This document shows positions 32,304-46,669 of a DNA stretch of 64,000 bases, one piece after another. The stretch's first letter is position 1. The number at the start of each line of letters is the position of its first letter. The notes beneath the pieces were generated by a model. That model did not search any database. It was given only the letters and a program-made list of their open reading frames with translations, and had not been told where the DNA came from. The position numbers and the translations under genes were made by a program. Source of the DNA: Amycolatopsis solani (lineage in GTDB: Bacteria > Actinomycetota > Actinomycetes > Mycobacteriales > Pseudonocardiaceae); contig NZ_JAWQJT010000002.1 in assembly GCF_033441515.1 (NCBI RefSeq), forward strand, positions 496,001 through 560,000, given 5' to 3'.

Positions 32304-32328
32304 TTACCCGAGGTCGGGGCGGGGAAAC
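32304..32328 (-). promoter_or_regulatory. SigF/SigB-type promoter of the NDH-2 operon
   Basis: On the minus strand GTTT (32325-32328), 15 bp, GGGTAA (32304-32309), 38 bp before the ATG at 32265. The box matches the known mycobacterial SigF / Streptomyces SigB consensus. Confidence 0.7.
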
Positions 32329-32335
32329 CCGCGGG

Positions 32336-32363
32336 TTGACCTCTCGGCACAGGCGCGTACGGT
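32336..32363 (+). promoter_or_regulatory. Possible housekeeping promoter of the STAS gene
   Basis: TTGACC, about 16 bp, TACGGT lies roughly 70 bp before the ATG at 32432. Unlike its neighbours this gene has no GGGTA box, so it may be expressed by the vegetative sigma factor. Confidence 0.4.
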
Positions 32364-32431
32364 CAGGGTGTTGGCTGTTGTTCAGACACGTGCTCCGGTC
32401 AGCGCCCCTGCACGCTGCGAAAGGGAGCGCC

Positions 32432-32800
32432 ATGCACGACATCTTCCGAACGGTTTACGAGCCCGCGGGCTTGACCGCTACCACGACCGAGCGTCCGGGC
32501 GGGGTCCGCGTCGTCACCTTGGTGGGCGACATCGACGCCGCCACCGTCGGAACCCTCGACGAAGCCCTCGCCGAGGGCGGGCCGATCATCGTCGACCTGA
32601 CGCGGGTTGCCTTCCTCAGCTGCGCCGGCGTCCGGTCGCTGCTGGTGGCGAACGACCGCACCGACCTCGCCGTCGTCGTCGGCGGCCACGCGGTGTCGCG
32701 CTCGCTGGAGGCGACCGGCGCCGACCTGGTGCTGAAGGTCCACCCGCGGGTGGGTCCGGCGCTCGCCGGTCTCACGACCGAGCCCGGCCGGGAGGCGTGA
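32432..32800 (+). CDS. STAS-domain anti-sigma factor antagonist-like protein
   Basis: ATG 32432 follows AAGGGAGCGC. The 122-residue protein is a single STAS domain: VRVVTLVGDIDAATVGTLDEAL, then IIVDLTRVAFLSCAGVRSLL. In SpoIIAA/RsbV proteins the phosphorylated Ser lies in the D-S-S-G segment; here the aligned segment reads SCAG, so Cys replaces that Ser and phosphorylation control may be lost. It lies within the island that also encodes the anti-sigma kinase and SigF, so it may be an input to that switch. The DUF4235 gene is convergent. Confidence 0.8.
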   Translation: MHDIFRTVYEPAGLTATTTERPGGVRVVTLVGDIDAATVGTLDEALAEGGPIIVDLTRVAFLSCAGVRSLLVANDRTDLAVVVGGHAVSRSLEATGADLVLKVHPRVGPALAGLTTEPGREA

Positions 32801-32825
32801 CCGCCCGGCGGCCACGCCTCCTGCC

Positions 32826-32838
32826 GTCCACTGTGGAC
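32826..32838. terminator. GTCCACTGTGGAC palindrome between convergent genes
   Basis: A perfect 6-bp-arm palindrome between the STAS stop and the DUF4235 stop. The same 13-mer recurs at 46292 and, inside a gene, at 61250. Confidence 0.4.
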
Positions 32839-32847
32839 TGAGCCGGG

Positions 32848-33111
32848 TCAGTCGTCCGGCCAGTCGCCGGTCGCCTTGCGGTAGCCGACCGCACCCGCTC
32901 GTTCCGTGGCCGCCTTGACGGCGGCGAAGATCGCGCCCTGCACCGCCGCCGCGATGACCACCTGCTGCCAGGTGTAGTCGCGGTCGGTGGCGTCGGGCGC
33001 GTCTTCTTCGCCGGCCACCCGCTTCCAGACCTGCTTGAAGGCCTGGCCGGCGAGGATGCCGCCGAGGGCACCCACCACCCAGCTCAGCGGCTTGTACAGC
33101 ACCTTGTTCAC
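32848..33111 (-). CDS. DUF4235 small membrane protein
   Basis: The 87-residue protein MNKVLYKPLSWVVGALGG has a hydrophobic N-terminal segment with Gly zipper spacing, a charged middle (RVAGEEDAPDATDRDYTW) and a second hydrophobic segment (VVIAAAVQGAIFAAVKAATERAG truncated here). This is the DUF4235 pattern, a family common in actinobacteria without known function. It is the last of three overlapping genes (4-bp overlaps at 33108-33111 and 33413-33416) behind a SigF-type promoter. Confidence 0.8.
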   Translation of the reverse strand: MNKVLYKPLSWVVGALGGILAGQAFKQVWKRVAGEEDAPDATDRDYTWQQVVIAAAVQGAIFAAVKAATERAGAVGYRKATGDWPDD

Positions 33112-33416
33112 GAGTCTTTCCTCCGTCGCGTGATCAGGCGGATCACGATCAGCAGCCCGAGCACACCCGCGAACACCGGCACCGGGTTGGCCCGGACCGC
33201 GTCGGCGCCCTGGCGGAACTTGACCGCGGTCGGCTCGTTCGTCACCTCGGCGACCTTCGCGGTCGCCACGTCGAGCTTCTCGTCGACGTTCTCCTTGACC
33301 CTGTTCTTCACGTCGAGCTTCTGCCCGAGCGCTTCCAGGGTCTCGGTGAGCTCCTCCCGGGTGGTGTCCCGGTCGAGGCGCGCCTCCTCGGCGTTCTTCG
33401 GGAAGTCGCCGCTCAT
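33108..33416 (-). CDS. DUF3618-type membrane-anchored protein
   Basis: The 102-residue protein begins MSGDFPKNAEEARLDRDTTREELTETLEAL, the conserved DUF3618 segment, continues as an amphipathic helix (LDVKNRVKENVDEKLDVATAK) and ends with one membrane helix (VPVFAGVLGLLIVIRLI) and basic residues. Members are thought to sit at the membrane and often accompany holin-like and DUF4235 proteins, as here. The function is unknown. Confidence 0.8.
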   Translation of the reverse strand: MSGDFPKNAEEARLDRDTTREELTETLEALGQKLDVKNRVKENVDEKLDVATAKVAEVTNEPTAVKFRQGADAVRANPVPVFAGVLGLLIVIRLITRRRKDS

Positions 33417-33826
33417 GTCCGCACCCCCTGCTTCACGGTGTCCACGTCTTCGCGGACGCCGGTGATCGCTTCCTCGGGTACCGGCGGCACCGCCTGGGTC
33501 ACTTCCTTCTTGCCCACCAGCGCCGCGATCCCCGCGATGAGGAACAGCGCGACCGCGACGAGCACGGCCGCGAGCCAGCCGGGCAGGACCAGCGCGAGCG
33601 CCAGCACGGCGGCCGCGACCAGCGTGCCGGCGCCGAACAGCGCGAACAACCCCGCCGCGCCGAACAACCCGGCGCCGACGCCCATCTTCTTGCCCTTGCG
33701 CTGCAGTTCGAAGACCGCGAGCCGCATCTCGTCCCGGACCAGTCGTTTGACTTCGCCGGTCAAGTCCGTCACCAGTTCGCCGACGGAACGGTCCGCCGCC
33801 GGTTTCTCGTTCACTTCTTCGATCAC
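33413..33826 (-). CDS. Phage-holin-3_6-like (Actinobacterial holin-X) membrane protein
   Basis: GTG 33826 follows GAAGGAGGTGTTCC. The 137-residue protein has a cytoplasmic helix with VGELVTDLTGEVKRLVRDEMRLA and two adjacent long membrane segments (GLFALFGAGTLVAAAVLALALV and LAAVLVAVALFLIAGIAALVG). The name comes from distant holin resemblance; a true lysis role is unlikely because it is a chromosomal stress operon gene. It leads the three-gene unit with DUF3618 and DUF4235. Confidence 0.78.
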   Translation of the reverse strand: MIEEVNEKPAADRSVGELVTDLTGEVKRLVRDEMRLAVFELQRKGKKMGVGAGLFGAAGLFALFGAGTLVAAAVLALALVLPGWLAAVLVAVALFLIAGIAALVGKKEVTQAVPPVPEEAITGVREDVDTVKQGVRT

Positions 33827-33853
33827 GGAACACCTCCTTCGCCTGGCCGCCGG

Positions 33854-33879
33854 GTACCCGGCTCACGGCCGGGTCAATC
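33854..33879 (-). promoter_or_regulatory. SigF/SigB-type promoter of the holin-like operon
   Basis: Minus-strand GATT (33876-33879), 16 bp, GGGTAC (33854-33859), 28 bp before the GTG at 33826. The -35 is one base off GTTT. Confidence 0.6.
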
Positions 33880-33886
33880 ACGGCGC

Positions 33887-33912
33887 GTTTTGCCCGCGGA
33901 ACGACCGGGTAG
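33887..33912 (+). promoter_or_regulatory. SigF/SigB-type promoter of the SRPBCC gene
   Basis: GTTT (33887-33890), 16 bp, GGGTAG (33907-33912), 33 bp before the ATG at 33946. It is divergent from the promoter at 33854-33879, only 7 bp away. Confidence 0.7.
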
Positions 33913-33945
33913 CCGGGGAATTCCACCATCGACCAGGAGGAGTGC

Positions 33946-34407
33946 ATGGGCACGATCACCGAAATCGTGGACGTGGAAGTCCCCGTTTCCACCGCGTACA
34001 ACCAGTGGACGCAGTTCGAGGAATTCCCGCGGTTCATGGAAGGCGTCGAAGAGATCCGCCAGGTCGACGCCACCCACACCCATTGGGTGACGCGCTTCGG
34101 TGGCGTGACGCGCGAATTCGACGCGACGATCACCGAGCAGCACCCCGACGAGCGGGTCGCGTGGACGTCCGATTCCGGTCCGGACCACGCCGGCGTCATC
34201 ACCTTCCACCGCCTCGGTGACGGGCACACGCGCGTCACCGCGCAGATGGACATCGACCCGGAGGGGTTCGCCGAGAACGTCGCCGACAAGCTGGGCGTGC
34301 TCGACCGCCGGGTCAAGGGCGACATGAAGCGGTTCAAGGAGTACATCGAGCAGCGCGGCCGCGAGTCCGGCGGCTGGCGCGGTGAAGTGGACCGCCCGGG
34401 GAAGTAA
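33946..34407 (+). CDS. SRPBCC/START-like protein (polyketide cyclase family)
   Basis: ATG 33946 follows AGGAGGAGTGC. The 153-residue protein begins MGTITEIVDVEVPVSTAYNQWTQFEEFPRFMEGVEEI, the first strand and helices of the SRPBCC lipid-binding fold, and ends with the long C-terminal helix LGVLDRRVKGDMKRFKEYIEQR. Such proteins bind a hydrophobic ligand or act in membrane stress; the ligand is not predictable. It is probably a single-gene SigF-type unit. Confidence 0.83.
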   Translation: MGTITEIVDVEVPVSTAYNQWTQFEEFPRFMEGVEEIRQVDATHTHWVTRFGGVTREFDATITEQHPDERVAWTSDSGPDHAGVITFHRLGDGHTRVTAQMDIDPEGFAENVADKLGVLDRRVKGDMKRFKEYIEQRGRESGGWRGEVDRPGK

Positions 34408-34457
34408 CCCGATCGGGGTGAACGGGCACGGCGGGGCGGTGACAGCCGCTCCGCCGT

Positions 34458-34483
34458 GTTTCGCGTCCGGAAACCACGGGTAG
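34458..34483 (+). promoter_or_regulatory. SigF/SigB-type promoter of the aldo/keto reductase gene
   Basis: GTTT (34458-34461), 16 bp, GGGTAG (34478-34483). Only 9 bases separate the -10 from the ATG at 34493, so transcription would begin at or next to the start codon. Confidence 0.75.
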
Positions 34484-34492
34484 GCCGCATCC

Positions 34493-35332
34493 ATGACGAC
34501 CACCGACACCGACGTTCCCACCGTCGAGCTGAACAACGGCGTGCGGATCCCGCAGCTCGGGTTCGGCGTTTTCCAGATCCCGCCGGAAGAAACCGCGCAA
34601 GCCGTGCGGACCGCTCTCGAAGCGGGCTACCGCCACATCGACACCGCGCAGATGTACCGGAACGAAGAGGGTGTCGGCGCGGGGATCGCGAAGTCGGGCC
34701 TGAACCGCGAAGACGTCTTCGTCACGACGAAACTGGCGAACGACGCGCACGGCCACGACAACGCGATCACCGCGCTGGAAGGCAGCCTGCGGCGGCTCGG
34801 TTTCGACCACGTCGACCTGTACCTGATCCACTGGCCGTTGCCGCACAAGGAGAACTACGTCCGCACCTGGCAGGGCTTCGAGGAAATCCTGCGGGCGGGC
34901 AAGGCGCGCGCGATCGGCGTGTCGAACTTCCAGCCGGCGCACCTCGACCGGCTCGCCGAGGAAACCGGCACCGTGCCCGCGGTCAACCAAATCGAGCTGC
35001 ACCCCGCGCTGCAGCAACCCGAACTGCGCGCCTACCACCGAGAGCACGGCATCGCGACCGAGGCGTGGAGCCCGCTCGCGCAGGCCGAAGTGCTCGGCGA
35101 CCCGGTGCTCGCCGACCTGGCGGGCAAGCACGGGCGGACGGCCGCGCAGGTGGTCCTGCGCTGGCACCTCCAGCTCGGGAACATCGTGATCCCGAAGTCG
35201 GTGTCGCCCGAACGGATGCGGGAGAACATCGACGTGTTCGGCTTCGAGCTGGACGACGAGGACATGGCCGCGATCGGCAAGCTCGACGCCGGACGGCGCA
35301 CCGGACCGGACCCGGACGCTTTCACGGGGTGA
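34493..35332 (+). CDS. Aldo/keto reductase
   Basis: The 279-residue protein has all AKR signatures: GFGVFQIPPEE near the start, EAGYRHIDTAQMY with the catalytic Asp and Tyr, TTKLAND (Lys), LYLIHWPLP with His, GVSNFQPAHL, and IPKSVSPERMRENI for NADPH binding. It matches the 2,5-diketo-gluconate reductase / morphine-dehydrogenase-like branch, reducing aldehydes and ketones with NADPH in the cytoplasm. It is probably translated from a leaderless mRNA, because the GGGTAG -10 ends 9 bases before the ATG and no ribosome site exists. Confidence 0.9.
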   Translation: MTTTDTDVPTVELNNGVRIPQLGFGVFQIPPEETAQAVRTALEAGYRHIDTAQMYRNEEGVGAGIAKSGLNREDVFVTTKLANDAHGHDNAITALEGSLRRLGFDHVDLYLIHWPLPHKENYVRTWQGFEEILRAGKARAIGVSNFQPAHLDRLAEETGTVPAVNQIELHPALQQPELRAYHREHGIATEAWSPLAQAEVLGDPVLADLAGKHGRTAAQVVLRWHLQLGNIVIPKSVSPERMRENIDVFGFELDDEDMAAIGKLDAGRRTGPDPDAFTG

Positions 35333-35339
35333 CCGAGGC

Positions 35340-35365
35340 GTTTCCCTGCGCGACACGACGGGTAT
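35340..35365 (+). promoter_or_regulatory. SigF/SigB-type promoter of the membrane protein gene
   Basis: GTTT (35340-35343), 16 bp, GGGTAT (35360-35365), 37 bp before the ATG at 35403: an exact consensus match. Confidence 0.75.
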
Positions 35366-35402
35366 CCCTCCGGCAAGGTCCCCCTGGAAGGAGCAACCCG
35401 GC

Positions 35403-35867
35403 ATGACCACGAACGCGTATCTGTCGTTCCTCGCGATCGGCATCGCGCTGGTCTTCATCGACGGGCAGATCATCTACCGCAGCGGCCGCCGCTACCTGGA
35501 GAACTCCTACGGCGATCCGGCGGCGGGTGCTTCGATGACCCGCCTGGTCACGGTGCTGTTCCACCTGGCGACGCTGGGTGTACTGGCGCTGATCTCGACC
35601 ATCGACATGGGCGGCAGCGACCTGCCGGGTGTCGTCGGCCGGCTCGGCGTGCTGCTGCTGATCCTCGCGATCGCCCACGCGATCACGCTCGGCGTACTGG
35701 CCCGCATCCGCGGCGAGCAGGAGGTCGAGGCGGTCGTCCAGCGCGGCGGGCGGCGGCAGCGGGTGGAGCCGCAGACCCCGACGGTGACGCCGGTACCCGG
35801 CCAGGCCGGTCAGTACCCGGACGTCAGCCCGACGCTGGAGAACCGGTCCCCGTACTCGGCCCAGTAG
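35403..35867 (+). CDS. Small three-helix membrane protein, paralogue of 8076-8543
   Basis: ATG 35403 follows CTGGAAGGAGCAACCCGGC. The 154-residue protein begins MTTNAYLSFLAIGIALVFIDGQIIYRSGRRYLEN, has further hydrophobic segments (LVTVLFHLATLGVLALI and VLLLILAIAHAITLGVLA) and a soluble tail with TVTPVPGQAGQYPDVSPTL. It shares this plan and tail with the gene at 8076-8543. Function is unknown; the consensus SigF-type promoter suggests an envelope stress role. Confidence 0.78.
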   Translation: MTTNAYLSFLAIGIALVFIDGQIIYRSGRRYLENSYGDPAAGASMTRLVTVLFHLATLGVLALISTIDMGGSDLPGVVGRLGVLLLILAIAHAITLGVLARIRGEQEVEAVVQRGGRRQRVEPQTPTVTPVPGQAGQYPDVSPTLENRSPYSAQ

Positions 35868-35875
35868 GGAGCGCC

Positions 35876-36676
35876 TCAGCCCTCGGCCGCCGGGAGGTCG
35901 ATCTCGGTGTGCCGGGTGGCGAGGGTGTGCGCGAGGTCCGCGAGCTTGACGTTCAGCTCCTGGGACGTGCGTCGCAGGACGTCGAAGGCTTCGTCGGCCG
36001 TGATGCCGCGGCGCTGCATCAGGATGCCCTTCGCCTGGCCGATGACGTCCCGGCTGTCCACCGCGCGCCGCAGGTGCTCGGCTTCCAGGTCGGCCGCGGC
36101 GACGGCTTCGGTGTGGGCGAGCGCCAGCGACGCGTGTGTGGCCAGCAGGAGCGCGCTGTCGATGGCTTCGCGGTCGAACGCGCCCGGCGTCCGCGAGTAG
36201 ATGTTGAGCGCTCCCGACAGGCGCGGCGGGCGGGCGTCCGGGACGAGGGCCGTCGCCAGCACCGAGTGGTAGCCGTGCCGGGCGGTGGCCGGGCCGAACG
36301 ACGGCCACCGCGGGTCGCGTCCGACGTCCTGTGACCACCCGACGGCCGGGCCGTCCGGGCGGGCCGATTCGACGCACGGGCCTTCGCCGTGGTCGTACTG
36401 CAGCTGGTCGAGCACCAGGGCCACCGGGTCGGTCTCGACCGGCGTGTGGAACCGGCCGTCGGGGTCGCGCAGGGTGACGCTGACCAGGTGGGCGTCCGGG
36501 ACGATCGCGACCGCGGCGCCGACGACGAGCTTGAGCACGCCGCCGACGGTCGGGGTCACGTCGAGCAGCGTCCGCGTGAGGTCGGCGAACTGCGCCGCCA
36601 GCGGCCCGGGCGCCCGGACGCCGTCCTGCCCGAACGAGATCCGGTCCCGGGCCCACTCCTCTTCGCTGACGCTCAT
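35876..36676 (-). CDS. GAF-ANTAR regulator
   Basis: ATG 36676 gives 266 residues. Residues about 25-185 form a GAF sensor (DQLQYDHGEGPCVESARPDG, GALNIYSRTPGAFDREA). The C-terminal ANTAR domain reads DSRDVIGQAKGILMQRRGITADEAFDVLRR, with the conserved AKGILM and Ala-rich helices; ANTAR domains bind dual-hexaloop RNA to prevent termination. The sensed signal and RNA target are unknown. It starts 8 bp after the hemerythrin stop, so the pair is one SigF-type operon. A paralogue is at 41783. Confidence 0.85.
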   Translation of the reverse strand: MSVSEEEWARDRISFGQDGVRAPGPLAAQFADLTRTLLDVTPTVGGVLKLVVGAAVAIVPDAHLVSVTLRDPDGRFHTPVETDPVALVLDQLQYDHGEGPCVESARPDGPAVGWSQDVGRDPRWPSFGPATARHGYHSVLATALVPDARPPRLSGALNIYSRTPGAFDREAIDSALLLATHASLALAHTEAVAAADLEAEHLRRAVDSRDVIGQAKGILMQRRGITADEAFDVLRRTSQELNVKLADLAHTLATRHTEIDLPAAEG

Positions 36677-36684
36677 CCGTCCAT

Positions 36685-37227
36685 TCAACCTGATGCCGAT
36701 GCGCCCTCGCCGCGCCCGGGCTCGCGCAACGCCGTCCGGGCGCGGTCGACGAAGCCCGGCCCCGGCCACAGCTGCTCGGCCGCCGGTACCCGGTCGGCCA
36801 GGTCCGGGTGGGGCACCGTCGGAGCGGCGTCCCGGGCTTCGAGGACCTCCCGGCCCAGCGCGGTCCGCCGTTCGGGCGAACACCGGCGCCGGACCTCGGT
36901 CACGGCCGCGGGTCCTTCGTCGCGGACGTGCCGCCGGACCGCGCGGATCAGCGCGCTCAGCAGCAGCTCGAACCGGGTCTCCTGCGGGCCAGCGCCTTCG
37001 ATCTGCCGCATCAGCCGCTCGGCTTCGGCGAGGTCGCCTTCGCCGTCGATGAACTCCTCCTCGGCCACGGCGTGCCGGACCAGCTCCGCGATCAGGTGGT
37101 CCGAGAGTTCCTTGCGGTTCTCCGGGCTGCCCTGGCCGAGTTCGAGCTCGGTGGCGAGCCGGTCGAGCTCCCGGTGGTCACCGGCGAGGACGATCGTCAG
37201 GTCGGTTGCGGGCTGGCTGCCGTTCAT
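36685..37227 (-). CDS. Hemerythrin-like HHE-domain protein
   Basis: The 180-residue protein opens with LTIVLAGDHRELDRLATEL, has HLIAELVRHAVAEEEFI (HxxxE) and ALIRAVRRHVRDEGPAAV (HxxxE), the spaced His/Glu pattern of HHE cation-binding helical bundles. Members bind a di-iron centre and sense or carry oxygen or NO, or protect against oxidative stress. The C-terminal 60 residues are a Pro/Arg-rich extension. It leads a two-gene unit with the GAF-ANTAR gene. Confidence 0.82.
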   Translation of the reverse strand: MNGSQPATDLTIVLAGDHRELDRLATELELGQGSPENRKELSDHLIAELVRHAVAEEEFIDGEGDLAEAERLMRQIEGAGPQETRFELLLSALIRAVRRHVRDEGPAAVTEVRRRCSPERRTALGREVLEARDAAPTVPHPDLADRVPAAEQLWPGPGFVDRARTALREPGRGEGASASG

Positions 37228-37264
37228 GCACGCTCCTGGTCCGGGCTCGGGGTTTCCGGGACGG

Positions 37265-37289
37265 ATACCCGCTGCTCGCGCGCCGAATC
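37265..37289 (-). promoter_or_regulatory. SigF/SigB-type promoter of the hemerythrin operon
   Basis: Minus-strand GATT (37286-37289), 15 bp, GGGTAT (37265-37270), 37 bp before the ATG at 37227. It is back to back with the promoter at 37293. Confidence 0.65.
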
Positions 37290-37292
37290 CCC

Positions 37293-37318
37293 GTGTCGGC
37301 CGGTCGCGCGCCGGGTAT
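37293..37318 (+). promoter_or_regulatory. SigF/SigB-type promoter of the CYTH-CHAD gene
   Basis: GTGT (37293-37296), 16 bp, GGGTAT (37313-37318), 35 bp before the ATG at 37354. Confidence 0.6.
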
Positions 37319-38882: not shown

Positions 38883-39674
38883 CTAACCTTCTCCGGTCAG
38901 CTTGCCGCGCAGCTGCTCGAGGGTCTGCGACAGCAGTCGCGAGACGTGCATCTGGGAAATGCCGACGCGGTCGGCGATCTGGGTCTGGGTCAGCCCGCCG
39001 AAGAACCGCATGACCAGGATCGCGCGTTCGCGCTTGGGCAGTTCCTGCAGCAGGGGCTGGAGGGCCTCGTGGTTCTCCACCATGGCCATCTCGTGGTCCG
39101 GTTCGCCCATCGTGTCCGCCAGCGACAGCGCCTCGGCGTCGTCGTGCACGGGCTTGTCGACCGACAGCGCCTGGTACGCGTTGCCCGCCATCAGGCCTTC
39201 GCGCACTTCGTCGACGTCCAGGCCCAGGTGCTCGGCCAGTTCCGTCGGGGTCGGGGCCCGGCCGAGGCGCTGCGAGAGCACCGCCGAGCCCTGGCTCAGG
39301 GACAGGTGCAGTTCCTTGAGCCGGCGCGGGACGCGCACCGACCAGCCGGTGTCGCGGAAGTGGCGCCGGACCTCGCCCATGATCGTCGGCACCGCGAAGG
39401 ACAGGAAATCGTGGCCGCGGGTCGGGTCGAACCGGTCGACCGCGTTGATCAGGCCGATCCGGGCCACCTGGACCAGGTCCTCGCGGGGTTCGCCGCGGCC
39501 GGAGAACCGCGTCGCGATGTGCTCGGCGAGCGGCAGCAGCTCGGTCACGAGCTTGCTCCGGACGACGTCCCGCCGCGGGTCGTCGGCGTCGAGCTCGCCC
39601 AGCTCCTCGAACAGCGGTTCGCAGTGGGCGTATTCGTCCGGGCGGTGGAGGACGGTTTTGCGCTCGCCGCTCAC
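38883..39674 (-). CDS. sigF: General-stress RNA polymerase sigma factor, SigF/SigB family
   Basis: GTG 39674 gives 263 residues. Region 2 reads LLPLAEHIATRFSGRGEPREDLVQVARIGLINAVDRFDPTRG with the core-binding and -10 reading segment (DFLSFAVPTIMGEVRRHFRD). Region 3 is LSQRLGRAPTPTELAEHLGL and region 4 ends LTQTQIADRVGISQMHVSRLL, the -35-binding HTH. This is the group-3 SigF/SigB type controlled by an RsbW-like kinase; the gene overlaps the anti-sigma gene in GTGA. Its expected promoter, GTTT-N15..17-GGGTA, occurs before many neighbours and before its own operon. Confidence 0.9.
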   Translation of the reverse strand: MSGERKTVLHRPDEYAHCEPLFEELGELDADDPRRDVVRSKLVTELLPLAEHIATRFSGRGEPREDLVQVARIGLINAVDRFDPTRGHDFLSFAVPTIMGEVRRHFRDTGWSVRVPRRLKELHLSLSQGSAVLSQRLGRAPTPTELAEHLGLDVDEVREGLMAGNAYQALSVDKPVHDDAEALSLADTMGEPDHEMAMVENHEALQPLLQELPKRERAILVMRFFGGLTQTQIADRVGISQMHVSRLLSQTLEQLRGKLTGEG

Positions 39675-40180
39675 GCGCTCGTTCCCGGGTTGAGGACCAG
39701 CTCGATCGTGACGATGCCCGCGCCTCCACCGGGGAGGACGTCGCAGTGCGCGGTCACCGACCGGCTCAGGGTGGTCAGGACGTGCCAGCCGAACGTGCGG
39801 TCGCTCGGCGGGCGCGGGTCGGTCGAGCGGGTCGAGACGACCACGTGCAGCCCGTCGACGGCGAGCCGGAAGCGGCACTGCAGCTGCGACCCCAGCTCGG
39901 CGAGCTGGACCAGCTGCGCGCAGGCCTCGTCGACGGCCATCTTCGCGTCGGCGATGGCGTCCAGCCCGAAGTCCGCGCGCGAGACCACGCCGTGCGTGAG
40001 CATGCGGACCAGGGGGATCTGCTCCGCCATCGCGGGGAGCCGCAGCTCGACGAGCTCGTCGAGCATCTCGTCGACGGTCGGTTTGCCGCCGGACGAGCCA
40101 CTTTCTTTTTCTTCCATGCTGGAGGTACTACCCATCTGGGCGAAGGCCGACACCGGTGGTTGGGGGGTTTCGGCCGTCAC
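39671..40180 (-). CDS. rsbW: RsbW/UsfX-like anti-sigma factor kinase
   Basis: The start is given at GTG 40180, because its GTGA overlaps the stop of the preceding gene; an internal ATG at 40117 behind a possible promoter is the alternative (148 residues). The GHKL ATPase fold is seen in KMAVDEACAQLVQLAELG (N-box region, with Gln where many kinases have Asn) and TFGWHVLTTLSRSV, matching the mycobacterial SigF anti-sigma factor UsfX (AVDEVCTRL, SWHVLTAL, from memory). It should sequester SigF until an antagonist binds it. The stop overlaps the sigF start by 4 bp. Confidence 0.82.
   Translation of the reverse strand: MTAETPQPPVSAFAQMGSTSSMEEKESGSSGGKPTVDEMLDELVELRLPAMAEQIPLVRMLTHGVVSRADFGLDAIADAKMAVDEACAQLVQLAELGSQLQCRFRLAVDGLHVVVSTRSTDPRPPSDRTFGWHVLTTLSRSVTAHCDVLPGGGAGIVTIELVLNPGTSA
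40128..40153 (-). promoter_or_regulatory. Possible internal SigF-type promoter in rsbW
   Basis: Minus-strand GTGT (40150-40153), 16 bp, GGGTAG (40128-40133), 10 bases before an internal ATG at 40117. It could give a shorter, leaderless rsbW-sigF message for autoregulation, or be chance. Confidence 0.4.
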
Positions 40181-40506
40181 CGGCCCAGCGCCCGTTCGAG
40201 TTCCTTCTTCGACATCTTCGAGCGGCCGTCGATGTTCTTCTTCTTGGCTTCGTTGTAGAGCTGGTCCTTCGTCGGCCCGCCCGGGCCCTTGCGGTTGCCC
40301 GACCGCTCGCCGCCGCGCTGCTGCGGGGACTTGTCCCGCAGGGACGTCTTGCTCGCCTGCCGGGACTCGCCCGCCTGCGCGCGGTTCTTGTTCACCGTCC
40401 GGGCCGCGATCTCCTCGGCCCGCTTGGTGCTCGCGCCACGGTCCTCGGCCGAGTCCTTGATGTGTTCGTACTGGCGTTCACGTTTGCCGCTCCACGACTG
40501 AGGCAT
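40177..40506 (-). CDS. Small basic protein with Rho-N/SAP-like C-terminus
   Basis: ATG 40506 gives 109 residues: MPQSWSGKRERQYEHIKDSAEDRG, then AEEIAARTVNKNRAQAGESRQASKTS, a charged low-complexity middle and GPTKDQLYNEAKKKNIDGRSKMSKKELERALGR. The end matches the Rho N-terminal/SAP-type helix-extended-helix that binds nucleic acid. Homologues are often labelled plasmid stabilisation protein without evidence. It heads the rsbW-sigF operon (GTGA overlap at 40177-40180) under a consensus SigF promoter. The Ku gene at 43573 ends with the same motif. Confidence 0.75.
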   Translation of the reverse strand: MPQSWSGKRERQYEHIKDSAEDRGASTKRAEEIAARTVNKNRAQAGESRQASKTSLRDKSPQQRGGERSGNRKGPGGPTKDQLYNEAKKKNIDGRSKMSKKELERALGR

Positions 40507-40534: not shown

Positions 40535-40559
40535 ATACCCACTTGATCTCCCGGCAAAC
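40535..40559 (-). promoter_or_regulatory. SigF/SigB-type promoter of the rsbW-sigF operon
   Basis: Minus-strand GTTT (40556-40559), 15 bp, GGGTAT (40535-40540), 28 bp before the ATG at 40506. An exact consensus match, implying autoregulation of sigF. Confidence 0.75.
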
Positions 40560-40573: not shown

Positions 40574-40598
40574 GTTGCCCACCGCATCGGCCGGGTAC
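40574..40598 (+). promoter_or_regulatory. SigF/SigB-type promoter of the F420-type LLM gene
   Basis: GTTG (40574-40577), 15 bp, GGGTAC (40593-40598), 28 bp before the ATG at 40627. It is divergent from the sigF operon promoter 14 bp away. Confidence 0.6.
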
Positions 40599-41639: not shown

Positions 41640-41782
41640 TGTGGCGCGCCATCGTGGTGACCGCTTGCGCCCGTGCCGATCGCGATGCAGTAATCTCGCG
41701 TCGGACCCGTTAAAGCGCTAGCGGCCCACTAGTGGCGCGCGCCCGGGTCCTCCCTGGTGTAAGAGCGCCCTGAGGCAACAGG

Positions 41783-42532
41783 ATGAAGGGCGTCAACCAG
41801 ATGATGGGCGGCCACGAGCAGCTCACCGCACGACTGGACGAAGTCACGGTCGCGATGGAGTCGCTGACCGCGATGCTGGACACCGAGCTCGACCTCGGTC
41901 AGATGCTGCAGGCGGTCTGCGACCACGTGGTGCACGTGGTGCCGGGAGCGGACATGGCGAGCATCACCCTCGTACGCGACGGCGTACCGGAAACGGTGGC
42001 GAGCACCGACCAGCGAGCGGTCAACTTCGACCGCGAGCAATACCGCATCGGCGACGGCCCGTGCCTGCGCGCCGCCGAGACCGGCCAGCCGGTCCGGGTC
42101 GGCGTCGGCGCGGTGGGCGACCTGTGGCCCCAGTTCGTGACGGCGGCGGAGCAACTGGGCGTGGCCAGCTTCCTGGCGGCCCCGCTGACGGTGGACGAGG
42201 ACATGTCCGGCGCGGTCAACCTGTTCGGCTTCGGCGAGCACGGTTTCAGCGAGCTGAGCACGAAGATCTTGGAGCTGTACACGGCCACGGTGGTGTTCGG
42301 CTTGCGCAGCGCCCGCCGGTACCTGGCGGCCCGCGATGTGGTCGATCAGCTGAACCGGGCGCTGGAGACCCGTGCGGTGATCGACCAGGCCAAGGGGATC
42401 CTGATGGCGGCGCACCGGATCACGGCGGAGGAAGCGTTCCAGCGGCTGGTGAAGCGGTCGCAGGACGGGAACCGGAAACTGCACGAGGTCGCGGCGGAGT
42501 TCGTGGCCGCGGTGGCAACGACGACGGCTTAG
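41783..42532 (+). CDS. GAF-ANTAR regulator (second copy)
   Basis: ATG 41783 follows TGAGGCAACAGG. The 249-residue protein has an N-terminal coiled segment (EQLTARLDEVTVAMESLTAML), a GAF domain (residues 35-180, with YRIGDGPCLRAAETGQPVRVGV and GAVNLFGFGEHGFSEL) and an ANTAR domain (ETRAVIDQAKGILMAAHRITAEEAFQRLVKRS). It resembles the gene at 35876 in order but differs in the coiled start. It should bind RNA hexaloops in response to an unknown ligand. No GGGTA box precedes it, unlike most neighbours. Confidence 0.85.
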   Translation: MKGVNQMMGGHEQLTARLDEVTVAMESLTAMLDTELDLGQMLQAVCDHVVHVVPGADMASITLVRDGVPETVASTDQRAVNFDREQYRIGDGPCLRAAETGQPVRVGVGAVGDLWPQFVTAAEQLGVASFLAAPLTVDEDMSGAVNLFGFGEHGFSELSTKILELYTATVVFGLRSARRYLAARDVVDQLNRALETRAVIDQAKGILMAAHRITAEEAFQRLVKRSQDGNRKLHEVAAEFVAAVATTTA

Positions 42533-42916
42533 GTTTGAGCCGCGCGGCTCGGCCGGCCAAGCCCGGCCGGCCGCCGCGGCCCGGCAGTCCCGAGTCCTGC
42601 TGGCCATCCGTGTGGCGGCCCGTCAGCCGAGTCCGCGGCGGCCCGCTGGTCGAGTCCGCGGCCCGTCGGCCGAGCGCCGCCAAGCGGGCCCTCGGCGGCG
42701 GCCGGTTCCGGCCCGGGGTTCCCCTCCTGGACTCCGCCGGCCCGGGTTCGGCCGTCGGCAGGCAGCCCCGAGCCGGCCCCGAGTCCCGCCGGCCGCCTAC
42801 AACGTCCCGCAGACCAGCCACCTCCTGCCGTGGCCAGGCTGCCCTGAAGGGGACGTTCAAGGCATCACACGCCAGCAACGTCCCCTTCACCTCACCACAT
42901 GCCCTGAACGTCCCCT
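42533..42916. other. Non-coding convergent gap
   Basis: These 384 bp between the GAF-ANTAR stop and the zinc-ribbon gene stop hold G/C-rich sequence with repeated CGAGTCCGCGGC-like pieces and, at the right end, a 22-bp inverted repeat (42844-42920). No gene with a ribosome site is supported. Confidence 0.55.
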
Positions 42917-42920
42917 TCAG
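42844..42920. terminator. GAAGGGGACGTTC-family inverted repeat
   Basis: Arms CTGAAGGGGACGTTCAAGGC(AT) at 42844-42865 and the complement at 42899-42920 match with one mismatch; a third partial copy (AACGTCCCCTTCA, 42877-42889) lies in the loop. The right arm overlaps the stop of the zinc-ribbon gene. It is a different element family from AATGACTCATT but in the same 3' position. Confidence 0.55.
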
Positions 42921-43126
42921 CCCGCGGGGACCTCGTCCGGGGGAGCGTCGGGCTCGGCGGCCGGTTCCGGGCGGCTGCGGCCGAGCTGGCAGGTCGTGCA
43001 CACCAGCGTGCGGCCGAGCACCGTCCCGTCGTCCGCGACGACCTGCGCCACGTGCATCGTCGGGAAGCCGCAGACCTCGCAGGGGAGTGAGCCGCTCTCG
43101 CGGCTGATGCGGATCTGGGTGCCCAT
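42917..43126 (-). CDS. Small zinc-ribbon protein
   Basis: ATG 43126 follows CAGCAGGAGGTCG. The 69-residue protein has CEVCGF at residue 16 and CTTCQL at residue 43, two CxxC knuckles separated by a beta-hairpin (TMHVAQVVADDGTVLGRTLV), the plan of a rubredoxin-like or zinc-ribbon domain; a Pro-Glu-rich tail follows. It probably binds Zn and may touch nucleic acid or protein. A weak GGTAG box upstream is not convincing as a SigF promoter. Confidence 0.7.
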   Translation of the reverse strand: MGTQIRISRESGSLPCEVCGFPTMHVAQVVADDGTVLGRTLVCTTCQLGRSRPEPAAEPDAPPDEVPAG

Positions 43127-43246
43127 TCGACCTCCTGCTGTGACGTGGGTCTCACCTACCTTGCCGTCTCCTGGGCCTTCACCGGGCGAATTCACTCGGT
43201 CGGCCTAACGTTCGCTGTCTCCGGAGTCGCGTCCGGTGCCTCCTGT

Positions 43247-43270
43247 GTTTCAGGGAGCGATCCGGGGTAA
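43247..43270 (+). promoter_or_regulatory. SigF/SigB-type promoter of the 64-residue gene
   Basis: GTTT (43247-43250), 14 bp, GGGTAA (43265-43270), 44 bp before the ATG at 43315. The spacer is one base shorter than usual. Confidence 0.5.
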
Positions 43271-43314
43271 TCGGCCGGCGAGACGCACTGGCGGATGCCC
43301 GGAGGGGAGCGGAG

Positions 43315-43509
43315 ATGCGAGACAAGCGGAACGACCTGCAACCGGTGGCGGACCTTCTCCTGGAGGGCCTCGACACACCGGAGCAGGAACGCACCCGGCA
43401 CAAGGCGGCGCTGGCCGTCGCCGCTCAGGCCAAGGACCCCGAGGACTGCGCGCGGCTGCTGGAGATGCTCGGCCTGCACCGCCCCGGCCGCGCCAGCGAG
43501 GTCGCCTGA
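43315..43509 (+). CDS. 64-residue helical protein, unknown function
   Basis: ATG 43315 follows GGAGGGGAGCGGAG. The protein reads MRDKRNDLQPVADLLLEGL, then RHKAALAVAAQAKDPEDCARLLEML, two or three amphipathic helices with one Cys. No named family is recognised. The good ribosome site and SigF-type upstream box support it as a real stress gene. The Ku gene follows 63 bp later with its own promoter. Confidence 0.65.
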   Translation: MRDKRNDLQPVADLLLEGLDTPEQERTRHKAALAVAAQAKDPEDCARLLEMLGLHRPGRASEVA

Positions 43510-43524
43510 CCTTCGTCACGCTGA

Positions 43525-43550
43525 GTTTCGAGAGGCCGCCACACGGGTAT
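43525..43550 (+). promoter_or_regulatory. SigF/SigB-type promoter of the Ku gene
   Basis: GTTT (43525-43528), 16 bp, GGGTAT (43545-43550), 22 bp before the ATG at 43573: an exact consensus match. Confidence 0.75.
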
Positions 43551-43572: not shown

Positions 43573-44478
43573 ATGGCGAGACCGGTGTGGAGCGGCGCGC
43601 TGAGCCTGGGGCTGGTCACGGTCCCCGTGGAGCTGTACCCCGCGGTGGCGGACCACACGATCCACTTCCACCAGTTCGAACGCGGCACGTCGGACCGGAT
43701 CCGCAACCGCCGCGTCAACGAGCGGACCGGCGACGAGGTCGGGCAGGACGAGATCGTCAAGGGCTACGACCTCGGTGGCGGCGACCACGTGCTCGTCGAG
43801 CCGGACGAGCTGGACGAGATCGCGCCCGAACGGTCCCGCCGGATCGACATCGAGCAGTTCGTCGAGCTCGGCGACATCGACCCGTGGTTCTTCGACAAGA
43901 CGTACTGGCTCAAGCCGGCGAAGGAGGACTTCGCCAAGGCGTACGGCCTGCTGCTGCAGGCGATGGACCGCAGCGAGAAGGCCGGCATCGCGAAGTTCGT
44001 GCTGCGCGGCAAGGAATACCTCGCTGCGATCCGCGCCGGTGAAGGCGTCATGGTGCTCAACACCCTGCACTTCGTCGCGGACCTCCGGAAGCCGGCGGAC
44101 GTCATGGGCGAGCTGCCCGAGGTGCCGAAGCCGCGGCCGAAGGAGCTCGACATGGCGCTCGCGCTGGTCGACGAGATGACCGCGCCCTGGAAGCCCGAGG
44201 ACTACCGCGACGAGTACTCGAAGCGCGTCGAGGAGCTGGTCAAGGCCAAGCAGGCGGGCAAGGAGATCACGCACGAAGAGGAGCCGGAGGCCTCGGCCGA
44301 CGTCGTCGACCTCTTCGAGGCGCTGTCGCGCAGCGTGAAGAACCGCAAGAAGCCGGCCAAGCAGGAACTCGCCGAGCTGTCCAAGGCCGACCTGGAAAAG
44401 CTCGCTCGCGAGCAGGGCGTCAAGGGCCGCTCGAAGATGACGCGCGCCGAGCTGGAGAAGGCGCTGAAAGCCTCGTGA
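43573..44478 (+). CDS. ku: Non-homologous end-joining protein Ku
   Basis: ATG 43573 follows GTGAGGAGGTCGAC. The 301-residue protein starts MARPVWSGALSLGLVTVPVELY, the standard bacterial Ku opening, with IHFHQFERGT, EYLAAIRAGEGVMVLNTLHFV and DEYSKRVEELVKAK, the ring-forming core. The C-terminus (ELSKADLEKLAREQGVKGRSKMTRAELEKALKAS) is a Rho-N/SAP-type extension beyond the minimal Ku. It should bind DNA ends as a homodimer and recruit LigD, which is not in this window. It is paired with UdgX convergently and has its own SigF promoter. Confidence 0.92.
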   Translation: MARPVWSGALSLGLVTVPVELYPAVADHTIHFHQFERGTSDRIRNRRVNERTGDEVGQDEIVKGYDLGGGDHVLVEPDELDEIAPERSRRIDIEQFVELGDIDPWFFDKTYWLKPAKEDFAKAYGLLLQAMDRSEKAGIAKFVLRGKEYLAAIRAGEGVMVLNTLHFVADLRKPADVMGELPEVPKPRPKELDMALALVDEMTAPWKPEDYRDEYSKRVEELVKAKQAGKEITHEEEPEASADVVDLFEALSRSVKNRKKPAKQELAELSKADLEKLAREQGVKGRSKMTRAELEKALKAS

Positions 44479-44482
44479 CCGG

Positions 44483-45094
44483 TCAGCCGAGCAGCTTGCC
44501 CGCCGCCTTCAGATCCGCCACGAAAGCCGCGTAGGCCTCGTCCCGGTCCGGCGCCCGCAGCACCGCCGACGGGTGCACGGTCGCCATCGCGGCCGGCGCC
44601 CCGGGCAGGTCCAGCGGCTCGCCCCGGTGCCGGGTGAGCCGGAAGTCCGGGCCCAGCAACGACTGCGCGGCCGTCGCACCCAGCAGCAGCACCAGGTCCG
44701 GGCGCACCGCGCGCAGTTCCGCCAGCAGCCACGGGCGGCACGCGACCACCTCGGTGCGACCCGGCTTCTGGTGGATGCGGCGCTTCCCCTCGCGCTTGAA
44801 CTTGAAGTGCTTCACCGCGTTCGTCACGTACAGTGACTGCCGGTCGAAGCCCGCTTCCTCGAAAGCGCGGTCCAGCAGTTTGCCCGCCGGGCCGACGAAC
44901 GGCTCGCCCGCCACGTCCTCCTTGTCGCCCGGCTGTTCGCCGACGACGAGGACCTTCGCCCCGGCCGGGCCTTCGCCGAACACGGTCTGCGTGGCGTCCT
45001 GGTACAACGCGCACCCCTGGCACCCGGCCGCCGCCGAGCGCAGGCGGCCGAGGTCGGTGGTGTCCGGTGGCTCGGCACCGCGGGAATCGGGCAT
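44483..45094 (-). CDS. udgX: UdgX-type uracil-DNA glycosylase superfamily protein
   Basis: ATG 45094 gives 203 residues. The family-4-like core has GCALYQDATQTVFGEGP, the [4Fe-4S] region cysteines (CQGC), VGEQPGDKEDVAGEPFVGP (motif A), and TVHPSAVLR (motif B). The insertion KREGKRRIHQKP is the R-loop diagnostic of UdgX, whose His forms a covalent bond with uracil-containing DNA. It therefore probably binds and shields uracil-DNA rather than turning over. It ends 4 bp from the convergent Ku gene. Confidence 0.88.
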   Translation of the reverse strand: MPDSRGAEPPDTTDLGRLRSAAAGCQGCALYQDATQTVFGEGPAGAKVLVVGEQPGDKEDVAGEPFVGPAGKLLDRAFEEAGFDRQSLYVTNAVKHFKFKREGKRRIHQKPGRTEVVACRPWLLAELRAVRPDLVLLLGATAAQSLLGPDFRLTRHRGEPLDLPGAPAAMATVHPSAVLRAPDRDEAYAAFVADLKAAGKLLG

Positions 45095-45104
45095 GTCCCC
45101 GGAA

Positions 45105-45130
45105 GTTCCCGGTGCGCCGACGGGCCAAAC
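45105..45130 (-). promoter_or_regulatory. Near-consensus SigF/SigB-type promoter of udgX
   Basis: Minus-strand GTTT (45127-45130), 16 bp, GGGAAC (45105-45110), one base off GGGTAC, about 10 bp before the ATG at 45094. Confidence 0.5.
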
Positions 45131-45155
45131 GACTGACCGGCGCCCACGCGGGTAC
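45131..45155 (+). promoter_or_regulatory. SigF/SigB-like promoter of the malic enzyme gene
   Basis: GACT (45131-45134), 15 bp, GGGTAC (45150-45155), only 9 bases before the ATG at 45165, implying a leaderless message. The -35 is weak. Confidence 0.5.
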
Positions 45156-45164
45156 CCGGCCGCC

Positions 45165-46292
45165 ATGACGCGCAGCCGAGGCAAAGTGGAAGTGGCGGTC
45201 CGGGTCGCCCTGGACACCCCCGAAGACCTGGCCGAGCACTACACGCCCGGCGTCGCGGACCAGGCGGAGCAGGTCGCCGACGACCCGTCGGTGCTCGGCC
45301 GCGAGACGGTCAAGGCCAACTCGGTCGCCATCGTCTCCGACGGGTCCGCGCTGCTCGGGCTCGGCGACCGGGGCCCGGCCGCCGCCCTGCCGGTGATGGA
45401 GGGCAAGGCGGCCCTGCTCAAACGCTTCGCCGACGTCGACGCCTGGCCGATCTGCCCGGTCAGCCGCGAACCGGACGACCTGGTCCGCACGGTGAAGGAC
45501 CTCGCGACGTCGTTCGGCGCGATCAACCTCGAAGACATCGCCGCCCCGCGCTGCTTCACCGTCGAACGGCGGCTGCACGACGAGCTCGACATCCCCGTCT
45601 TCCACGACGACCAGCACGGCACCGCGGTCGTCGTGCTCGGCGCGCTGCACAACGCGCTCAAGCTGACCGGCCGCGCCCCGGACGGGACGTCGGTCGTCAT
45701 TTCCGGCGCCGGCGCGGCGGGCAGCGCGATCGCCCGGCTGCTGCTGCGGGCCGGCTACCGGTCCGACGGGATCGTCGTCTGCGACCGCGAAGGCGCCCTG
45801 CACGAGGACCGCGACTTGACGGGGGAGAAGGGCTGGCTCGCGGAGAACACCAACGCGGGCGGCACCACCGGCTCGCTGAAGGACGCCCTGCGCGGCGCGG
45901 ACGTCTTCATCGGCGTCAGCACCGGCGGGCTCTTGGCGCCGGACGACGTCGAGGTCATGGCCGAGCGCGCGATCGTGTTCGCGCTGGCCAACCCGGACCC
46001 GGAGGTCGACCCGGCCGCGGCCGGGCGGCACGCGGCGGTCGTCGCGACCGGGCGCAGCGACTTCCCCAACCAGATCAACAACGTGCTGGCGTTCCCGGGG
46101 ATGTTCCGCGGCCTGCTCGACTCGGGCGCGCCGCGGGTGACGCCGCAGATGCTGCTCGCGGCGGCGCACGCGCTCGCGGACGTCGTGGGGGAGGACCTGG
46201 AGCCGGGGCGGATCGTCCCGAGCGTGTTCGACGAGTCGCTGGTGCCCGCGGTGGCCGAGGCGGTGACGGGCGCGGCGAAGGCCGCCGGCTAG
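45165..46292 (+). CDS. NAD(P)-dependent malic enzyme
   Basis: The 375-residue protein has AEHYTPGVAD (active-site Tyr), VKANSVAIVSDGSALLGLGD, PVMEGKAALLKRFADVDAWPI with the catalytic Lys, INLEDIAAPRCF and FHDDQHGTA (metal-binding Glu/Asp), then the Rossmann GAGAAGSAIARLLL and ANPDPEVDP. This is the short bacterial malic enzyme that decarboxylates malate to pyruvate. It lacks the phosphotransacetylase-like extension of MaeB. No ribosome site is visible; the GGGTAC box 9 bases upstream suggests a leaderless, stress-controlled message. Confidence 0.88.
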   Translation: MTRSRGKVEVAVRVALDTPEDLAEHYTPGVADQAEQVADDPSVLGRETVKANSVAIVSDGSALLGLGDRGPAAALPVMEGKAALLKRFADVDAWPICPVSREPDDLVRTVKDLATSFGAINLEDIAAPRCFTVERRLHDELDIPVFHDDQHGTAVVVLGALHNALKLTGRAPDGTSVVISGAGAAGSAIARLLLRAGYRSDGIVVCDREGALHEDRDLTGEKGWLAENTNAGGTTGSLKDALRGADVFIGVSTGGLLAPDDVEVMAERAIVFALANPDPEVDPAAAGRHAAVVATGRSDFPNQINNVLAFPGMFRGLLDSGAPRVTPQMLLAAAHALADVVGEDLEPGRIVPSVFDESLVPAVAEAVTGAAKAAG

Positions 46293-46304
46293 TCCACTGT
46301 GGAC
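46292..46304. terminator. GTCCACTGTGGAC palindrome between convergent genes
   Basis: Same 13-mer as at 32826, starting at the last base of the malic enzyme stop and 7 bp from the convergent DUF3040 gene stop. Confidence 0.4.
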
Positions 46305-46311
46305 CAGCGGG

Positions 46312-46614
46312 TCACGGCGCGGCCGGTGCGGCGTCGTCTTCGGTGGCCTCGCGGGCCGATTCGGCGCGGGCGATGTGCCACGCCACCAGCGCGCCCGCGC
46401 TCACCGTGCCCCAGAGCACGAGTGCGGCGTCCTTGGCGAACAGGCCGACGAGCAGCATCACGACGGCGGTGACGTCGCAGAGCACCAGCAGCAGGTTCCA
46501 GCGCCTGAGCCCGCGCAGCTTGCGCCCGGTGAAGGCGGCGGCGAACGCGGGGTCGCTGGCCTGCAGCTCCGCTTCGATTTCGCGCAGCGCGTGGTGTTCT
46601 CGCTCCGGAAGCAT
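46312..46614 (-). CDS. DUF3040 membrane protein
   Basis: ATG 46614 follows GCCAGGAGGACCCC. The 100-residue protein begins MLPEREHHALREIEAELQASDPAFAAAF, the conserved DUF3040 segment, and has two membrane helices (WNLLLVLCDVTAVVMLLVGLF and ALVLWGTVSAGALVAWHI). These proteins are common, small and uncharacterised in actinobacteria. GGGTAC upstream suggests the same stress regulon. Confidence 0.83.
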   Translation of the reverse strand: MLPEREHHALREIEAELQASDPAFAAAFTGRKLRGLRRWNLLLVLCDVTAVVMLLVGLFAKDAALVLWGTVSAGALVAWHIARAESAREATEDDAAPAAP

Positions 46615-46644
46615 GGGGTCCTCCTGGCCTCGGCTACCGGAGTG

Positions 46645-46669
46645 GTACCCCCTCCGCGCCCGTTCAATG
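46645..46669 (-). promoter_or_regulatory. Weak SigF/SigB-like promoter of the DUF3040 gene
   Basis: Minus-strand CATT (46666-46669), 15 bp, GGGTAC (46645-46650), 30 bp before the ATG at 46614. Confidence 0.45.

Follow-up and report, generated by a model that had tools for sequence, protein, structure and literature searches.

Whether the gene for an alternative sigma factor can lie amid the genes that it controls, and whether such genes are tied together by their position or by their promoters, is the question raised by a 64,000-nt stretch of the Amycolatopsis solani genome (C2:496001-560000, hereafter the window; the genome, labelled G000, has 10.28 Mb in 4 contigs and about 72% GC). In this stretch an island with 20 gene starts surrounds sigF, which encodes a SigF-type sigma factor (SigF-A), and a sequence-only reading had taken the whole for a self-contained stress regulon packed around its own sigma operon. 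We give a probability of roughly 0.8 to the reading of a genuine SigF stress-regulon island that probably autoregulates and works as proposed below; the roles of SigF-A as main reader of the promoters, of feedback, of release by STAS proteins, of the inducing stress and of the operons are predictions from sequence.

Promoter boxes were scored as matches out of 9 positions (a GTTT-like -35 plus a GGGTA -10), and the best box was taken from the 130 nt upstream of 21 gene starts, the 20 of the island and that of the adjoining IlvD. Thirteen of these 21 starts have a box of at least 8/9 and another two a box of 7/9 with the full GGGTA (Table 1), which bears out the earlier claim of boxes ahead of at least twelve transcription units; for all 15 boxes the -10 ends 10-45 nt ahead of the start codon. 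By comparison, the rate of scores of at least 8/9 is 0.53% for random 130-nt segments taken outside the island and 1.6% for shuffled upstreams. The exact pattern GTTTN{14,17}GGGTA occurs seven times in the window, always at 32305-43549, against 0.16 expected, and 0 of 100 shuffled windows reached seven. The count of six exact GTTT-N15/16-GGGTA boxes was right; the seventh exact match, at the gene for a 64-aa protein, has an N14 spacer, and GTGT-N16-GGGTA is probably the true box of that gene because this form is found in 6 of the 9 genomes counted. No box of at least 8/9, or with a full GGGTA, lies in the 130-nt upstreams of the STAS gene, the two GAF-ANTAR genes, the 69-aa protein gene, sigF itself or IlvD.

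These boxes are also kept in relatives, which were picked non-randomly, with SigF identity and gene proximity among the criteria: 40 kb around the best SigF match were taken from 20 of them (16 congeners and 4 members of other genera of the order), and 6 congeners (G001, G010, G016, G020, G032, G034) were added later. Against 12 congeners, in pairwise alignments with the box columns fixed by this genome, identity is 93.5% in the -10 (402/430 cells) and 85.5% in the -35 (294/344), versus 66% in the spacer (891/1346) and 67-70% in the flanks. Gene by gene, counting this genome and tblastn matches of at least 45% identity whose alignment starts in the first 25 residues, an exact box precedes the chaB-like gene in 9 of the 10 genomes having a homolog, SRPBCC in 8/9, the small membrane protein in 7/8 and the aldo/keto reductase in 4/4. 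A box scoring 8 stands ahead of the F420 enzyme in 8/8 and of the holin operon in 9/10; udgX has the same box in 6/6; and boxes of at least 8/9 accompany the 64-aa protein in 9/9, hemerythrin and the CYTH-CHAD protein in 4/4 each, and Ku (in the locus comparison) and DUF3040 in 3/4 each, the DUF3040 box of G003, G024 and G029 reading GCTT-N16-GGGTA. All seven exact boxes are found again at corresponding places in G003. The weaker cases are the malic enzyme (at least 8/9 in 0/2, and 7/9 in G003 too), sigF itself (at least 8/9 in 2/21) and STAS (best box 7/9 with an imperfect -10 in 4/4); no relative has a box of at least 8/9 for STAS, either GAF-ANTAR gene, the 69-aa protein or IlvD. The reversed motif reached 8/9 three times in total, at SRPBCC in 2 of the same 9 genomes and at udgX in 1 of 6. 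Judged by placement and conservation, the island boxes are conserved SigF/SigB-type promoters.

The sigma factor itself is SigF-type by its sequence, as had been claimed: SigF-A scores 382.5 bits against NF005514 SigF (cut-off 372) and 297 bits against TIGR02980 SigBFG (cut-off 234.35), and falls below the cut-offs of SigB TIGR02941 and sporulation SigF TIGR02885. Its closest counterparts in named records, at 97% identity, are those of A. iheyensis and Amycolatopsis sp. MtRt-6. The Amycolatopsis orthologs form a SigF-A group (support 96/96 with 17 rows, and 90/85 with 10 rows in a second tree) that goes with mycobacterial and Rhodococcus SigF (100/99; 95/99), several Amycolatopsis paralogs falling inside, in midpoint-rooted trees that included no other sigma types. 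Assignment to SigF-A was made by tree for rows in the trees and by identity for the remaining rows; tree rows came from tblastn with stop signs entered as X, of which the extra SigF of G029 has one.

The adjoining RsbW had been read as an anti-sigma kinase. Kinase-type HATPases carry an N-box ExxxN and a G1 motif DxGxG, and the kinase label is unsupported because RsbW is without the N-box Asn, the position reading EACAQ; no DxGxG-like motif is recognisable by eye either, and the HATPase_c_2 match has just 28 bits. Its closest PDB chains, 8ih8_C (E 5.9e-10) and 8jzt_B (E 6.8e-10), are labelled Anti-sigma-F factor RsbW, and by similarity and by its place beside sigF it is classed as a predicted non-kinase anti-sigma factor of the UsfX/RsbW1-like kind. 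Further upstream lies a small gene with a SigF box, so that the layout is that of an autoregulated operon; its product has no Pfam or NCBIfam match and is called chaB-like for its position, which is that of chaB (MSMEG_1802) ahead of rsbW-sigF in M. smegmatis. Ahead of rsbW an 8/9 box is found in 10 of 16 genomes, in 6 of them with nearly all of the island missing at the locus; a box is thus conserved ahead of rsbW or the chaB-like gene even where most of the island is gone. Given that two conserved boxes lie in the chaB-like-rsbW-sigF operon, it probably autoregulates.

Taken together, these features suggest the following course of events. In the unstressed cell SigF-A would be held by the adjoining non-kinase-type RsbW; a stress signal would act through STAS-domain antagonists, with kinase and phosphatase encoded elsewhere, to free SigF-A, and SigF-RNA polymerase would then start at the GTTT-like/GGGTA promoters. 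The boxes ahead of the chaB-like gene and rsbW would provide positive feedback on the rsbW-sigF operon, while the other 13 island boxes (11 strong, 2 weak) would switch on genes for redox, envelope, phosphate and DNA-end-repair functions. Dozens more promoters elsewhere, those of a second island without a SigF/SigB-type gene included, would respond likewise. In the island's own STAS protein, a Cys (LSCAGV) seemingly takes the place of the usual phosphorylated Ser of RsbV-type proteins (by eye).

That second island emerges from the whole genome, for which gene starts were predicted from codon scores with a purpose-built caller; its training set was the genes of the island, which it found again, with the starts of Ku and the malic enzyme shifted. 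GTTT-N14..17-GGGTA has 100 exact matches in the genome, against 13 for the reversed pattern and 27 for N18-21 spacing, none of the 27 in the island. After merging of two identical C1 boxes, 65 of the 99 distinct matches lie at most 150 nt upstream of a predicted gene start (7 in the island, 11 in the second island, 47 elsewhere). In 20000 runs of random placement neither 7 matches in 11.2 kb nor 12 in 37.8 kb was ever reached. The expected concentration of boxes here is real (0/20000 placements), although the island is not the sole hot spot: 93 of the 100 exact boxes lie outside it, and C2:1843660-1881449, 1.3 Mb off, holds 12, which rules out a single-island reading. With 7 of 100 exact matches here, 12 there and a second SigB/F-type sigma at C1:868350, the description as self-contained has to be given up. 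The second island has genes for a GCS2-type ligase, an ATP-grasp protein, topoisomerase IB, an epimerase, a glycosyltransferase, a carbamoyltransferase, a dehydrogenase and a STAS protein. No SigBFG match occurs in it at E 0.001, ruling out a SigF/SigB-type gene hidden there, and since it has none it would be read in trans. Around 80 named SigF loci, with flanks of up to 10 kb, the exact box occurs 125 times and the reversed one 7 times (summed). Boxes near sigF are thus general and a dense island is not, because 77 of the 80 loci hold 0-3 exact boxes; the two nearest Amycolatopsis have 6 and 5, and Rhodococcus maanshanensis 5.

In congeners, gene content was judged over 20 kb on each side of sigF. 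A nearly full gene set stands at the sigF locus of G003, G024 and G029, a fuller version of the island spread over some 22 kb in G032, and a reduced core in G007, G014, G018, G019 and G030. In G018 and G007 second-island genes lie about 30-70 kb from sigF-A, versus 1.3 Mb here. In 20 of 34 congeners SRPBCC has a SigF-type gene no more than 15 kb away, which is a SigF-A gene (by identity) 19 times and, in G001, another. What was not expected is that, within this non-random set of relatives, one promoter-bearing gene set appears beside different SigF paralogs. A single 75-kb stretch of G033 carries genes of both islands around two SigF paralogs 62-65% identical to SigF-A, and the SigF-A ortholog of that genome has no package genes within 20 kb. 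Boxes of 8 or 9 precede its NDH-2, AKR (aldo/keto reductase), SRPBCC, udgX, membrane protein, Ku and holin genes; the chaB-like and GAF-ANTAR boxes score no higher than 7, and at the F420 enzyme the box, 97 nt off, has a faulty -10. That the package sigma of G033 is a SigF-A ortholog was rejected (p-AU 2.6e-42; the group had been named after an earlier tree). The same stretch (G033:C1:2535001-2610000) seemingly also contains a catalase-like gene and a multi-subunit antiporter-like operon, by reading of the sequence. In G001, where SigF matches are at most 64% identical to SigF-A, two SigF genes that share a clade with the G033 pair (100/99) are surrounded by NDH-2, GAF-ANTAR, membrane protein, SRPBCC, AKR, chaB-like and alcohol dehydrogenase genes, and exact boxes start at 922377 and 922902, just upstream of SRPBCC and AKR. 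Smaller parts of the package lie beside other SigF paralogs in G010, G012, G020, G004 and G025; the closest homolog that G004 and G012 have (66-69%) falls outside the SigF-A group in the tree.

It is an even proposition, in our judgement, that these genes form a package with an exchangeable sigma, that is, that the same boxed genes have SigF-A for a neighbour in many Amycolatopsis but, in other species of the genus, SigF paralogs that are not its orthologs. Its members would be NDH-2, SRPBCC, the aldo/keto reductase, the membrane protein, the chaB-like gene, the holin operon, udgX, the F420 enzyme, Ku/NHEJ (DNA-end joining) and an envelope-glycan half. The package may have moved, the sigma may have been replaced, or both sets may have been assembled separately. 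If promoters were kept while the local sigma was replaced, SigF paralogs would therefore compete for a shared promoter set.

Ku illustrates how far promoter and position can part. It lies at most 10 kb from a SigF-type gene in 12 of the 33 congeners with a Ku match (8 SigF-A, 4 other). Thirty of these 33 matches were checked, 3 being left out. A box scoring 8/9 or better lies no more than 200 nt away in 20 of the 30 orthologs, of which 3 stand near a SigF gene (G003, G029, G033), 7 at 0.57 Mb or more from one, and 10 on draft-genome contigs with no SigF match. In G024 Ku starts 28 nt after the box-bearing 64-aa gene, and in five relatives of the G024 group Ku lies in the island yet has no box of its own. 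Downstream of Ku, G003 and G024 carry genes resembling ATP-dependent ligase and LigD polymerase (so named from their sequence as read), which are missing here between Ku and udgX (window 44479-44482). Elsewhere in this genome, an exact box lies at 50 nt from the LigD_N protein gene C2:1270831 and another at 69 nt from a STAS-like gene ahead of a LigD-polymerase-like gene, and a gene run ending in LigD C2:1954072 opens with GTGT-N16-GGGTA. No 8/9 box lies upstream of the other two Ku genes here or of LigD C2:1660600; a common driver for all Ku genes was rejected, a box of 8/9 or better being present at 1 of 3. The earlier suggestion that dense clustering itself binds the functions together is not supported, as Ku and SRPBCC stand away from any sigF found in many congeners and 17 such Ku genes are boxed; the shared promoter is the link between the functions, and clustering is an extra.

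Several findings weigh against a SigF-A-driven island. The box alone does not tell which sigma reads it, because a second SigB/F-type sigma exists and the SigB homologues of S. coelicolor cross-read promoters (PMC8346170). The 27 matches of the spacing control suggest that as many as about one in four of the 100 genome matches could be background. Neither STAS nor either GAF-ANTAR gene has its own box; NDH-2 keeps a box of at least 8/9 in 5 of 11 genomes and wants it in 6; 10 of 30 Ku orthologs are without an 8/9 box; and G008, G011, G025, G027, G028 and G033, all with SigF-A orthologs, retain of the island, within 20 kb, nothing beyond rsbW-sigF and, in some cases, NDH-2 or a single GAF-ANTAR gene.

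Of the competing explanations, that which survives best attributes the clustering to an integration or rearrangement hot spot that gathered stress genes, not to selection for co-regulation, the promoters being equally good elsewhere. The scattered yet boxed Ku genes, the strongly variable content of the locus between species and a transposase-like fragment at the G019 locus (by eye) agree with it, but the recurrence of the same gene set beside SigF-type genes of several lineages would be unexpected under random collection, and we regard such an origin as possible though rather doubtful. A second explanation accepts true SigB/F-type promoters and makes the C1:868350 sigma, or both sigmas, the main reader, with SigF-A not the chief regulator. 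This sigma is the only TIGR02980 match over cut-off in the genome besides SigF-A, its neighbouring HATPase protein is kinase-like (ELVTN), and boxes surround it (GTTT-N16-GGGCA twice, GATT-N16-GGGTA once); the cross-recognition in S. coelicolor and the lack of a SigF/SigB-type gene in the second island also speak for it. Against it, boxes are grouped around SigF-A, with conservation at the operon of SigF-A itself, whereas an 8/9 box precedes just 3 predicted genes in the 20 kb around the C1 sigma; a leading or shared part for the C1 sigma is unlikely. Finally, a chance or composition artefact, conceivable for a short, degenerate, GGG-rich motif in GC-rich DNA, is ruled out for the island as a whole by the shuffles, the reversed pattern, the wrong spacing and random placement, together with the footprinting comparison, and is extremely improbable, although an individual weak box, at the malic enzyme or DUF3040, might nonetheless have arisen by chance.

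An island run by SigF-A would represent a defined SigF regulon outside the mycobacteria, in a genus of antibiotic producers. It would put Ku, a gene of DNA-end joining, under a predicted general stress promoter; in two relatives ligase-like and polymerase-like genes follow Ku. More broadly, should the package prove to swap sigma partners and keep its promoters, nature would have supplied a test of how a regulon is shared among paralogous sigmas or passes from one to another. Cross-recognition among Streptomyces SigB homologues has already raised that question.

Table 1. Coordinates of the island's genes and predicted promoter boxes in the window.
Feature	Position	Strand	Basis or score
NDH-2-like pyridine nucleotide-disulphide oxidoreductase (NDH-2 is the name of the sequence-only reading)	30964..32265	-	Pfam Pyr_redox_2 3.7e-49
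Box GTTT-N15-GGGTA of NDH-2	32305..32328	-	9/9, exact
STAS-domain protein, candidate anti-sigma antagonist	32432..32800	+	Pfam STAS 1.6e-8
Putative operon Holin-X (PF07332), DUF3618, DUF4235	32848..33826	-	Pfam
Box GATT-N16-GGGTA of holin-like operon	33855..33879	-	8/9
Box GTTT-N16-GGGTA of SRPBCC (33946-34407 +)	33887..33911	+	9/9, exact
Box GTTT-N16-GGGTA of aldo/keto reductase (34493-35332 +)	34458..34482	+	9/9, exact
Box GTTT-N16-GGGTA of small membrane protein (35403-35867 +)	35340..35364	+	9/9, exact
Box GATT-N15-GGGTA of hemerythrin (36685-37227 -), then GAF-ANTAR (35876-36676 -)	37266..37289	-	8/9
Box GTGT-N16-GGGTA of CYTH-CHAD protein (37354-38850 +)	37293..37317	+	8/9
sigF (SigF-A), SigB/SigF-type sigma factor, 263 aa	38883..39674	-	NCBIfam NF005514, TIGR02980; Pfam Sigma70 r2/r3/r4; trees
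rsbW, predicted anti-sigma factor, kinase motifs not recognisable, 4-nt overlap with sigF	39671..40117	-	HATPase_c_2 2.4e-6, 28 bits, cut-off 27.4
Box GTGT-N16-GGGTA, 11 nt upstream of rsbW (absent from the sequence-only reading)	40129..40153	-	8/9
Small Lys-rich chaB-like protein, head of rsbW-sigF operon	40177..40506	-	name from position alone
Box GTTT-N15-GGGTA, predicted operon promoter of chaB-like-rsbW-sigF	40536..40559	-	9/9, exact
Box GTTG-N15-GGGTA of F420 LLM enzyme (40627-41589 +)	40574..40597	+	8/9; TIGR03557 over cut-off
Box GTGT-N16-GGGTA of 64-aa protein (43315-43509 +), or GTTT-N14 from 43247	43245..43269	+	9/9 as GTTT-N14
Box GTTT-N16-GGGTA of Ku (43573-44478 +)	43525..43549	+	9/9, exact; Ku PF02735 1.2e-48
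Box GTTT-N16-GGGAA of udgX (44483-45094 -)	45106..45130	-	8/9; UdgX TIGR03914 268 bits
Weak box GACT-N15-GGGTA of malic enzyme (45165-46292 +)	45131..45154	+	7/9, full GGGTA
Weak box CATT-N15-GGGTA of putative DUF3040 gene (46312-46614 -; name from the sequence-only reading)	46646..46669	-	7/9, full GGGTA

Some further features of the box and of the window may be recorded here. Among the 65 upstream boxes, 14 end 4-11 nt ahead of the predicted start (10-11 nt in 12 of the 14), and these short distances suggest nearly leaderless transcripts; the covered part of the M. smegmatis SigF promoter table likewise has many boxes 8-11 nt from the start (PMC4694148). Three near-identical exact boxes lie on one strand within 450 bases at C1:3322770-3323219. 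An identical 25-mer, GTTTACAGCGTGGACTACCAGGGTA, occurs at C1:3772509 and C3:1451245 and also in G003, G007, G018, G025 and G033; it probably represents conserved coding sequence as well as a class of false positives for the box pattern. Intergenic inverted repeats at window 30308-30397 and 48680-48740 look terminator-like by eye.

A literature search over titles and abstract openings, with subscription journals mostly outside its reach, found no description of the Amycolatopsis island, and several known systems resemble it in part. In Bacillus subtilis SigG controls the NHEJ genes ykoU/ykoV; Ku and ligase genes are likewise under an alternative sigma, although SigG is a sporulation sigma and Ku here lies near a SigF-type stress box (PMC5124664). 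The S. coelicolor SigB homologues share the promoter class and the presence of several paralogous sigmas (PMC8346170). Mycobacterial SigF partner-switching is similar in having a non-kinase RsbW beside sigF, a kinase-like RsbW elsewhere and STAS proteins (PMC7693655 and PMC10950880); in M. smegmatis RsbW1, adjoining sigF, has no kinase activity and RsbW2 is the kinase (PMC7693655), whereas the Amycolatopsis STAS protein is only a candidate antagonist. The closest parallel is the M. smegmatis SigF regulon, which, in the part of its description covered here, also has a SigF-type sigma and genes in the order chaB-rsbW-sigF, with GTTT-N15/16-GGGTA as the box and a SigF promoter lying some 1 kb ahead of sigF (PMC4694148). 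Clusters of SigF-regulated genes around sigF are a known kind of arrangement, because 28 such genes with this class of box, MSMEG_1758 to MSMEG_1804 (sigF being 1804, and counted), show lowered expression in the sigF mutant in both phases (PMC4694148). Hemerythrin, oxidoreductases, a carboxylate-amine ligase and a type I topoisomerase are shared targets; Ku, udgX, CYTH-CHAD, Holin-X, NDH-2 and the F420 enzyme are unnamed among the targets in that part of the source, in which many rows are hypotheticals (PMC4694148). Unlike that of M. smegmatis, the Amycolatopsis target set is split into two islands, and by species it stands beside different SigF paralogs.

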